Shown here in pieces: positions 49,156 through 52,775 of a DNA stretch of 64,000 nt (position 1 is its first letter; each line of letters begins with the position of its first letter). The notes under the pieces are model-generated. The model was given only the letters and a program-made list of their open reading frames with translations. It did not search any database and was not told the origin of the DNA. The stretch covers positions 1-64,000 of the forward strand of contig CALDHM010000016.1 in NCBI GenBank assembly GCA_937941455.1, in the 5' to 3' direction. The translations under genes and the position numbers were made by a program. This DNA comes from an uncultured Pirellulaceae bacterium (GTDB lineage Bacteria; Planctomycetota; Planctomycetia; Pirellulales; Pirellulaceae).

Positions 49156-50811
49156 TCACGAACGCGGCTTGAGGATCAACAACACGCGTCGCGTTGAGGT
49201 CGCCGGAGCAGGACGATTACTTTCCCACCCCTCCAAGCTCGCTTCCGCATCCTTGGCGAGGTCGCTGGCGTTGGGGGGGGCGGCTCCGCTGGCGTCGCCG
49301 CGGTGAGTCTCCTTGTCGGCTATCATCGGCAACACGAAGGGTTGTGCAGCTTGCGAAGCGATTGCAGCCTCTTGTTTTTCGACCGCAGCACCCCCGGCTG
49401 GATTAGACGAAGCTGACTCATTGCTAAAGCCCCCCCCCGGCAAGGCTCGCTGCTGGAGCGCCGCACGGTTTTCGACCCGATCGGCAACCGTGTCATTGCG
49501 CGCAGCGAGTTGGTTCGTCCAATTTTCGAAGGCCAGCAGGCCATTGGATTGCTCGATACCGGCTTCACCAGCCCGGGCCTTTAATCGCGTCAGCAGCGAT
49601 GATACCTGCTGATCCGATGCGATCCACTCGATTTTCACTGGCAACCCGCTGTCACCGGCCTCGTTGCCCCTGTCGCTCGCCTGTTCAGCCTGCCCCGCAA
49701 ATATGTTGGCTGCCTGTTCATCCCGCTGACCAATCCCGGGAGCGGCGACCAAGCCGGCACCGCCTAATCCGACGCTGGTCGGTAGCGACGAAACCACGGC
49801 TTCTTTTTCGAGCAACCCACGATAGTACGCCAACGAACGCTCGTGACCTTCCAGCACGAAGGCATAATATTTCGTCGGGTCGTATGTCGATGGAGCTCGC
49901 TCGACGTTGGCCGCAATTCCCGGCAGTTGGAATCGACCGGCCGAAACTGCCGCTTCGGGTTGCCTTCGATCGTTCATCTCGACAATCCACAACTCGGCGA
50001 AATCGCCAGTCAAGACGTTGGCGTTTTCGCCTGCTCGTGAGTCAAAAGCACGATCGTCACTCACAATTTTCGACCGTTCTATGGCCTTGGCGATACCCTC
50101 GGAGGACACGTCACCCGCATGAACCGGTTCGGCGTCCTTTGCCAACGATTTCATCTCCAGCGGCGGCGTAGGGGCCAAGCTTTCAGCCATTTCATTTTCG
50201 CGTTTTCTTAAGGCCCCATCCGGCATTTCAGTCCTTGGCGCATCTGACTGTGACCGCGAGGTCTCGGCAGCCTCGGCCTCCGCAGCAGGCTGCGTCACGG
50301 GCTCGAAAGTATAGGCCAGCCTATCGAGATTGTCCGGTTCTCGCTCTGAACCCTCTAGGGCATCGGAAACCCCAGGTGCCGACTTCAGGGCGTTTTGCTG
50401 GGCCAAGGGCACGTCGCCGCGTTGTCGCTGCAATGCCATCCAGAAAACTCCCAGTACGAGGGATGCAGCCAAAGCCGCGGCCGACATCCAGCGTAGGGTC
50501 CGCGGTCCCGCTTTGCTCCCTCGACGTGCGGCCGCAGGGGACGGAGTCGCCGCGCCGGTCAACTGGCCGGCGCTGGACGGAGTCAGCGAGGACGAGCCGA
50601 ACGCGCGACTAACGACCTGGTCGGCGAATCCCTGGGGCAAAGCGACTTTGGGAAAGGCCCGGCACTGTTGCGCGATGGCCCGCCACGATTCCACTTGCTC
50701 GCGAAAACTCGGGTCCTCCGCCATCAACCTCTCGGCACGCGCCAACTCGGGACCGGACAAGTTGCCGTCCAAGTAATCGTTCAAAAAATCCTCGTCGAAA
50801 TTTCGCGACAT
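49156..50811 (-). CDS. membrane-anchored anti-sigma factor, long periplasmic domain
   Basis: 551 aa. The N terminus (DEDFLNDYLDGNLSGPELARAERLMAEDPSFREQVESWRAI) is an anti-sigma domain without the zinc HxxxCxxC motif. One span lies at about 108-128 (WMSAAALAASLVLGVFWMAL). The remaining ~420 residues are Ala/Glu/Ser-rich and mostly low complexity, with a folded patch at about 265-330 (NVLTGDFAELWIVEMNDRRQPEAAVSAGRFQLP and LEGHERSLAYYRGLLEKEAVV). The C terminus ends in RRVLLILKPRS. Located 22 bp after the sigma factor gene on the same strand; presumably holds it at the membrane until released. Confidence 0.75.
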   Translation of the reverse strand: MSRNFDEDFLNDYLDGNLSGPELARAERLMAEDPSFREQVESWRAIAQQCRAFPKVALPQGFADQVVSRAFGSSSLTPSSAGQLTGAATPSPAAARRGSKAGPRTLRWMSAAALAASLVLGVFWMALQRQRGDVPLAQQNALKSAPGVSDALEGSEREPDNLDRLAYTFEPVTQPAAEAEAAETSRSQSDAPRTEMPDGALRKRENEMAESLAPTPPLEMKSLAKDAEPVHAGDVSSEGIAKAIERSKIVSDDRAFDSRAGENANVLTGDFAELWIVEMNDRRQPEAAVSAGRFQLPGIAANVERAPSTYDPTKYYAFVLEGHERSLAYYRGLLEKEAVVSSLPTSVGLGGAGLVAAPGIGQRDEQAANIFAGQAEQASDRGNEAGDSGLPVKIEWIASDQQVSSLLTRLKARAGEAGIEQSNGLLAFENWTNQLAARNDTVADRVENRAALQQRALPGGGFSNESASSNPAGGAAVEKQEAAIASQAAQPFVLPMIADKETHRGDASGAAPPNASDLAKDAEASLEGWESNRPAPATSTRRVLLILKPRS

Positions 50812-50833: not shown

Positions 50834-51412
50834 TTAATTGGGGGATTGGATTCCCAAAGCGATGAGTTCTTCCTTGAGTTGATGGCGGGCCCGATGAAGT
50901 CGGCTCCGCACGGTCCCCACAGGGATCTCCAAAATTTCAGCGATGGCTTCGTACTCCAAGCCGTCAAACTCGCGAAGGACCAGAATCGTACGCTGGTCCT
51001 CCTCAAGGCGAGCCAAAGCCCGCTGGACTTGAGTGACCGTTTCCTCGACGTCCAACGGTCGCTGCGGCGCACTATCGCTCGATTCGATATCGCGCAGTGA
51101 GCCGTTCTCTTGGTAAAGGCTCGCTGTTGACTTGCGGCTGCGGATGCGACTGATCGCCAAATTCCGAGCGATCCGAAAAATCCAGGTATAAAAATGGCTG
51201 TCGCCGCGGAAGGAGGACAAACGCCTATACGCTTGAACGAAACTGTCCTGCGTGACGTCCTGCGCTTCATGTTCGCTGCCCAAAAGATGAATCAAACTGT
51301 TGAAAAGCCGGTCTTGATAGCGGCGCACCAATTCGCCGAAGGCGTCCCGATCGCCGGCCAATGTGGCCTCGATCAGTTGATTATCGGTCTGACTGGATTT
51401 CGGCTCGTTCAT
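50834..51412 (-). CDS. ECF-type RNA polymerase sigma factor
   Basis: 192 aa. Region 2 reads FGELVRRYQDRLFNSLIHLLG and DVTQDSFVQAYRRLSSFRGDSHFYTWIFRIARNLAISRIR, region 4 as RTILVLREFDGLEYEAIAEILEIPVGTVRSRLHRARHQLKEEL. An acidic linker with RDIESSDSAPQRPLDVEETV separates them. It is immediately upstream of the anti-sigma gene, so it is probably autoregulated and released by signal-dependent anti-sigma cleavage; a site-2 protease is encoded elsewhere in the window (8379-9368). No target promoter was identified. Confidence 0.92.
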   Translation of the reverse strand: MNEPKSSQTDNQLIEATLAGDRDAFGELVRRYQDRLFNSLIHLLGSEHEAQDVTQDSFVQAYRRLSSFRGDSHFYTWIFRIARNLAISRIRSRKSTASLYQENGSLRDIESSDSAPQRPLDVEETVTQVQRALARLEEDQRTILVLREFDGLEYEAIAEILEIPVGTVRSRLHRARHQLKEELIALGIQSPN

Positions 51413-51497: not shown

Positions 51498-52775
51498 TTA
51501 CGAGGTTTTTCGAGAATTCCAGCGTTGCCCGGCCACCCACAACACCGACCCGGCCCCCAACCCTACGATGCTGATCCACTGGCTGATCGAGAGACTGGTC
51601 CCCATTAGCCCCTTCTCGTCAACTCGAATCGCCTCCTCCAGGTACCGGCAAACGGCGTAAGTGATGAGCATCAACGCCAGCACCTGACCATCGAACGTGC
51701 GCAGCGGATAGAAGAACCACAATAATCCGAAGATGATCGCCGCACTAATCGTGGCGTAAATCTGTGTGGGATGGATTTTCAGAGACCGCTGCGGGAACTG
51801 ACTCGCCGGAATCTCGCGAAAGATATCGCCCCGTTCTTTCGTCTCGATCACGACCGGAATCGGTATCGACAAATTAGCCTCGAGAATAAAACGCAAGCGA
51901 TCAGGCTCCAACAAATGAGGAATGCGAATCAGATCGCCAGCCTTCAATCCGAACCGTTCGCCAAGGCTCCCGGGGTGGACTTGGATGACCTCTCGAGGAA
52001 ACTTTGGGTTGGTCGTTTCCTTCGTTTCGATGCCGAGTAGCGAGCCGTCTACGTATTGCTCGTAGTAGGGGGGGGAACCAGCTGGGAACTCAATCCCCAA
52101 GGGAAAATCATCGCCGCACAATCCGCCATAGCAGCAACCATTCATCAAGCAGCCGATCCTTCCGATCGCGAGCCCCCAGGCCATCGCCGGGGCGAGAATA
52201 TCGAGCGTCGCCAGAATCGGCAGCTTCGCCTTGCGAAGATACAGCAGCGCCCCCACGATGGCCCCGATCAGACTTCCGTAGACGACCAGCCCCCCCTTGC
52301 TCATGTCGATGATCGCCAACAATGTGGACAGCCAATGCTTACCGGTAAACTCAGGCCATTTTTGGATGACGTACAACAACCGAGCGCCGATCAACCCACT
52401 GACGATCACCACGAAACACACCGTGATGATCGGCTCCGGATTTTGCCCGAGGCGGCGGCACCGTAGGACCACCAAGCCCATCGCCGAGACGATGGCCAAC
52501 ATCAGGAAAAACCCGTAACCGCGAATCGCCAACCCGCCCGGCAACAAGTCGCCCAGCGGATCGGCCGGATTGACTTGAGGCACCGACAGCGCCGGCAGCA
52601 CCCAGCCGATGATCGCCGCAATGATCGCAAGGATCGGCCCTTGCTCCCGAATCGCCCTTCCCCAACCAAGCAGCCGCGCGTGCCACACCAACCAACCCGC
52701 GGCAACCAGCAACCACGACCACAGGATCCAGGTGGTGAACCATTCTTTAGGAATGATGAGCAGCGTTTGCTTCAT
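51498..52775 (-). CDS. lgt: prolipoprotein diacylglyceryl transferase with PDZ-like insertion
   Basis: 425 aa, well above the ~270-300 aa norm. The Lgt core is seen as GLAIRGYGFFLMLAIVSAMG, SGLIGARLLYVIQKWPEF, GGLVVYGSLIGAIVGALLYLRK, and the signature WGLAIGRIGCLMNGCCYGG. After FPAGSPPYYEQYVDG, about 75 extra residues intervene before HPTQIYATISA; they contain VHPGSLGERFGLKAGDLIRIP, a PDZ-type carboxylate-binding loop. Additional N-terminal residues (about 1-60) hold further spans. It attaches diacylglycerol to the lipobox Cys of lipoproteins. ATG overlaps the panC stop (ATGA), so they are co-translated. Confidence 0.9.
   Translation of the reverse strand: MKQTLLIIPKEWFTTWILWSWLLVAAGWLVWHARLLGWGRAIREQGPILAIIAAIIGWVLPALSVPQVNPADPLGDLLPGGLAIRGYGFFLMLAIVSAMGLVVLRCRRLGQNPEPIITVCFVVIVSGLIGARLLYVIQKWPEFTGKHWLSTLLAIIDMSKGGLVVYGSLIGAIVGALLYLRKAKLPILATLDILAPAMAWGLAIGRIGCLMNGCCYGGLCGDDFPLGIEFPAGSPPYYEQYVDGSLLGIETKETTNPKFPREVIQVHPGSLGERFGLKAGDLIRIPHLLEPDRLRFILEANLSIPIPVVIETKERGDIFREIPASQFPQRSLKIHPTQIYATISAAIIFGLLWFFYPLRTFDGQVLALMLITYAVCRYLEEAIRVDEKGLMGTSLSISQWISIVGLGAGSVLWVAGQRWNSRKTS

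Follow-up and report, generated by a model that had tools for sequence, protein, structure and literature searches.

The prolipoprotein diacylglyceryl transferase (Lgt) encoded in the window, by which we mean the whole stretch of 64,000 nucleotides from an uncultured Pirellulaceae bacterium analyzed here, carries a true PDZ domain of the HtrA/DegP/S2P type in its periplasmic head. Our computations show that this architecture is near-universal in Pirellulales and that it also occurs in Gemmatales-type Lgt. Lgt adds the first lipid to bacterial lipoproteins; the enzyme is nearly universal among bacteria and essential in many. In Planctopirus limnophila, lgt was scored essential (PMC10632474).

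An Lgt with a conventional body

The lgt gene (51498..52775, minus strand) encodes 425 residues and starts at an ATG at 52775 that overlaps the stop codon of panC. The assignment is based on Pfam LGT (PF01790; 166.6 bits against a cut-off of 24.9, residues 80-414, gapped) and on structure. An AlphaFold model of the whole enzyme, run with 53 sequences, has a mean pLDDT of 92.8 and matches E. coli Lgt (5azb) with a Z score of 22.4 and an rmsd of 3.2 over 260 aligned residues (Foldseek E 1.1e-10). TIGR00544 scores below its cut-off (111.4 versus 118.9 bits, in two stretches); it is one NCBI naming model (an NCBIfam equivalog) and was not counted as defining the Lgt family.

In our alignments, the equivalents of E. 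coli R143, R239, E243, and R246 are all retained. R206 and R377 correspond to the essential R143 and R239, respectively, and are invariant in alignment A1; R206 falls within the Lgt signature GRIGCLMNGCCYG (residues 205-217; 52125..52163, minus strand). Three other positions are substituted relative to E. coli, with H103 replaced by Y166, N146 by C209, and E151 by C214. Cysteine at positions 146 and 151 of distant Lgt is on record, as is tyrosine, tryptophan, or phenylalanine at H103 (PMC13251419), and given that such replacements are known elsewhere in the family, N146 and H103 do not define it. The window Lgt probably performs ordinary diacylglyceryl transfer in the membrane.

The entire transmembrane (TM) body and the head are shared with E. 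coli Lgt (5azb/5azc; PMC4728403), whereas two features distinguish the window enzyme, namely, the PDZ domain in the head and an extra hairpin of two helices that follows the first strand of the head. The hairpin (residues 10-62; 52590..52748, minus strand), delimited by DSSP of the model and hydrophobic in sequence, separates the N-terminal strand of the head from arm-1; it is seemingly common to Planctomycetales-type Lgt and not to Gemmatales-type Lgt. The HPTQ motif (51765..51776, minus strand; residues 334-337, to within one codon) immediately precedes the first TM helix downstream of the insert. An earlier note, made from the DNA letters, had described the HPTQ block as C-terminal; in the model, three TM helices come after it.

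The same genome encodes a second PF01790 protein, of 241 residues and without the insert (locus L060 on contig C21, 1468-2193, minus strand). Its gene overlaps one for a radical SAM protein with an HMPTM zinc ribbon (L060, 2190-3641, minus strand), and the two are possibly a membrane-lipid enzyme pair.

The insert as a PDZ domain

The head helix PPYYEQYV (residues 235-242; 52050..52073, minus strand; located in the model), which is retained in PDZ-less Lgt, leads into the PDZ domain (approximately residues 246-326; 51798..52040, minus strand), the boundaries of which were derived from the PDZ-less relatives L131, L126, and L130. The insert follows the head helix that comes after FPAGSPPYYEQ, precedes HPTQ, and comprises about 80 residues without counterpart in short-headed relatives. 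The earlier note had counted about 75 extra residues and called them PDZ-like. The count agrees with the 75-80 residues found here, the three landmarks that it named (FPAGSPPYYEQ, VHPGSLGERFGLKAGDLI, and HPTQIY) are all present in the minus-strand open reading frame, and profile, fold, and conservation together strengthen PDZ-like to true PDZ.

Pfam PDZ_6 is sub-threshold on the window Lgt, both over the whole protein (E 9e-4, 19.3 bits versus a cut-off of 27) and over the insert alone (E 1.2e-4, 22.2 bits versus 27); in the Lgt of relatives, E values go down to 1.4e-13. The same model is present in 13/28, 28/53, and 29/43 Lgt of three Pirellulales-dominated sets whose organisms overlap, and Pfam finds a PDZ domain in 22 of 23 Gemmatales-type Lgt. 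A profile built from 44 Lgt inserts (A6) and searched against PDB sequences matched an S2P homologue (5.7e-19), DegP (8.8e-17), and RseP (5.3e-15); 387 PDB sequences were matched at E<=0.1, and the best 60 of the 387 are all PDZ-bearing proteins. A control set of 19 Lgt, drawn from Phycisphaerae and other groups and having head inserts of long or medium size, gave no match to any PDZ model.

Structure prediction, which the earlier note had suggested as a check, points the same way. The insert modeled alone (pLDDT 86.3) has the element order b-b-a-b-a-b-b, which is the PDZ order, and every match listed for it in structural comparison is either a PDZ domain or a protein that bears one (Z 5-6.1, 2.7-3.9 A, 65-78 residues). 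Z scores of 5-6 are modest, and the claim of a PDZ fold therefore rests on the uniformity of that list together with the sequence profile. With the whole enzyme as the Foldseek query, Lgt comes first, followed mostly by PDZ proteases. The closest folds are the PDZ domains of HtrA/DegP/DegS and CtpA, which share with the Lgt insert a helix, then an x-hydrophobic-G-hydrophobic loop, then a strand. Those domains regulate proteases and bind the C termini of misfolded proteins; in contrast, the PDZ domain of the window Lgt sits in a non-protease.

Three other accounts of the insert can be set aside. Disorder is ruled out by a pLDDT of 75-96 per block across the insert; a chance or low-complexity match is ruled out by the insert profile, the fold, and the control set; and Phycisphaerae-type inserts, which give no PDZ match, rule out a PDZ domain as a trait of every long-headed Lgt.

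If this domain binds peptides, what in its sequence would do so? The carboxylate-binding-loop pattern, identified in an alignment of Lgt PDZ domains, is S-L-L-G-I (residues 245-249; 52029..52043, minus strand), with L-L-G-I as the x-hydrophobic-G-hydrophobic loop. The loop glycine (G248 here) is glycine in 127/127 Lgt PDZ domains, and the next residue is hydrophobic in all 127; most other columns, unlike that of the glycine, are variable. A loop glycine and a following hydrophobic residue are what peptide-binding PDZ domains keep. This pattern makes it plausible that the Lgt PDZ is a peptide-binding domain, and the invariant glycine could instead have a structural role. The groove helix is poorly conserved among Lgt PDZ domains and the window copy is without the usual 'ING' strand, so that some copies may not bind peptides. 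A C-terminal signature common to the lipoproteins was considered as a ligand; among lipoprotein candidates in the window and about 0.79 Mb of the same genome, a small sample from a crude caller, 0 of 6-7 end in V/I/L/M/F/W/Y. The C terminus of LspA is cytoplasmic in E. coli and was set aside as a ligand for that reason.

Distribution, gain, and loss

A survey of Planctomycetota Lgt, another check that the earlier note had suggested, finds the insert in most relatives. A search for the nearest relatives found this Lgt in 60/60 genomes, the window's own included, and we identify the clade as Pirellulales because named loci include Rhodopirellula, Botrimarina, and Lacipirellula. All but one of 72 sampled Pirellulales genomes (71) carry an Lgt insert of at least 88 residues; the insert profile matches (E<1e-3) in 68 of the 72, a figure that is partly circular since some profile members are from the same species. 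Given that the insert is both ordered and conserved, neither disorder nor absence from relatives can be held against the domain.

In a contig scan, the best 80 loci were all Planctomycetota by title, bar one labelled 'bacterium'. PDZ domains occupy the same head position in families f97, f98, f99, and f100, and f97 clusters with a named Gemmataceae record. The domain is absent from 8/8 sampled Lgt of f96 and 12/12 of f21, two families of the same class that probably correspond to Isosphaeraceae and Planctomycetaceae, and from 26/26 sampled Lgt outside the class. Three Pirellulales Lgt (L194, L199, and L202) have tandem PDZ copies in inserts of ~180-190 residues. In Gemmatales-type L166-L171 and L120, the PDZ domain itself contains an extra insert, of ~70 residues in L166-L171. 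Phycisphaerae-type Lgt (L116-L118, L121-L125, L128, L129, L132, L134, L135, L137, L139, and L140) also carry inserts at this point of the head; these are unrelated to the PDZ, ~50-150 residues long, and in many cases helix-like in sequence, and no Pfam domain was found in them.

In a tree built from the Lgt body after removal of the insert, by a quick method with SH-aLRT support only, Pirellulales Lgt form a single group (99). A PDZ-less branch of L126, L130, L133, and L203 (100) is nested within it, beside the PDZ-bearing L026 (95), and L131 is a second, separate PDZ-less Lgt in the order. The domain has thus been lost at least twice inside Pirellulales, which means that it is dispensable for the Lgt reaction. 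At least five changes of PDZ state are needed across the tree; they would fit a single gain in the ancestor of the class followed by losses, or else more than one gain.

These losses bear on whether the domain does anything at all. The Lgt head may simply tolerate insertions, and the PDZ may be a neutral or stabilizing decoration without a ligand. The unrelated inserts of Phycisphaerae-type Lgt, the weak sequence conservation of the domain, and its repeated loss are what one would expect on that account; however, near-complete retention across the sampled Pirellulales genomes and the same loop pattern in Gemmatales-type Lgt argue against it, and we consider it unlikely.

Proposed role beside the active-site cavity

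Conservation is lowest in the head of E. coli Lgt, a region that influences which substrates are handled, that alters function when swapped, and that has been proposed to meet the linker of the preprolipoprotein (PMC13251419). In RseP, a PDZ tandem is a size-exclusion filter above the intramembrane active site (PMC7728848). Based on the loop pattern and on these two sets of observations, we favor, at a probability of roughly 0.55, a model in which the PDZ serves on the periplasmic side as an accessory module for docking or gating that engages a peptide or segment beside the cavity of an Lgt with ordinary chemistry. In this model, the domain would sit beside the mouth of the membrane-embedded active-site cavity, on its periplasmic side, where exposed peptides or extended segments would be engaged; candidate targets are the linker or mature part of an incoming preprolipoprotein or a periplasmic partner. 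We posit that it would thereby position or screen what gets to the cavity, as RseP does with its own PDZ domains. By sequence profile, the Lgt insert is best matched by the PDZ domains of RseP and other site-2 proteases, enzymes that likewise place a periplasmic PDZ between TM segments with the active site in the membrane. They are, however, proteases, whereas the window Lgt is a lipid transferase, and filtering is proposed here only by analogy.

The earlier note had suggested that the domain could help Lgt to select lipobox substrates, and this part of its proposal is not supported. Direct reading of the lipobox or signal peptide would be in keeping with a PDZ close to the active site and with the importance of the head for E. 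coli Lgt function (PMC13251419). Yet the proposed route of the peptide substrate into E. coli Lgt is a lateral one, by way of membrane clefts (PMC4728403), the PDZ belongs to the periplasmic head, and PDZ-less Lgt occur in the same order. Because the lipobox is expected to sit in the membrane cavity, we regard this reading as highly improbable.

Could the domain instead dock a fixed envelope partner, in line with the earlier note's other suggestion that it might join a complex? Here, the PDZ would bind the C terminus or a loop of, for example, a part of the Sec translocon or another lipoprotein-pathway or outer-membrane factor, placing Lgt in a complex without reading substrates. A loop that is invariant while the rest of the domain drifts is as expected with one constant type of ligand, and the tandem copies noted above also favor docking. 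The genes around lgt, in contrast, offer no candidate. The neighbors are panC, an ECF sigma factor gene directly after lgt (50834-51412, minus strand), and a presumed anti-sigma factor gene after that (49156-50811, minus strand), the last so named from position and sequence, with no Pfam match for its product. panC precedes lgt in many Planctomycetota whether or not the PDZ is present, so that its adjacency is uninformative about the domain. Partner docking is a possible, if doubtful, alternative to the docking or gating module that we favor.

An orthologous ECF sigma factor gene is next after lgt in many Pirellulales, which raises a possible tie to envelope stress. We speculate, with low confidence, that in two planctomycete orders Lgt is a gated or ligand-sensing enzyme, in which the PDZ would read peptide ends or unfolded segments in the periplasm and license preprolipoproteins for lipidation, possibly in connection with envelope stress.

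In the open-access literature, we found no description of a natural Lgt with a PDZ domain, only an engineered fusion and unrelated papers. The engineered Lgt-PDZ scaffold in E. coli (PMC9893748) also joins the two; there, a mouse PDZ is fused artificially at a terminus for enzyme clustering, whereas in the window Lgt the domain is natural and internal. Lgt goes unmentioned in the main text of a survey of 7,852 microbial PDZ proteins (PMC6411480), as do PDZ domains, Planctomycetota, and insertions in that of the Lgt head study (PMC13251419).

Substrate recognition by Lgt is unsettled, and the head is the suspected site (PMC13251419). If the head naturally contains a recognition domain that can be removed, and sister lineages without the PDZ serve as controls, the question of recognition becomes directly testable; the PDZ domain of Lgt also adds a non-proteolytic setting to those in which bacterial PDZ domains are found.
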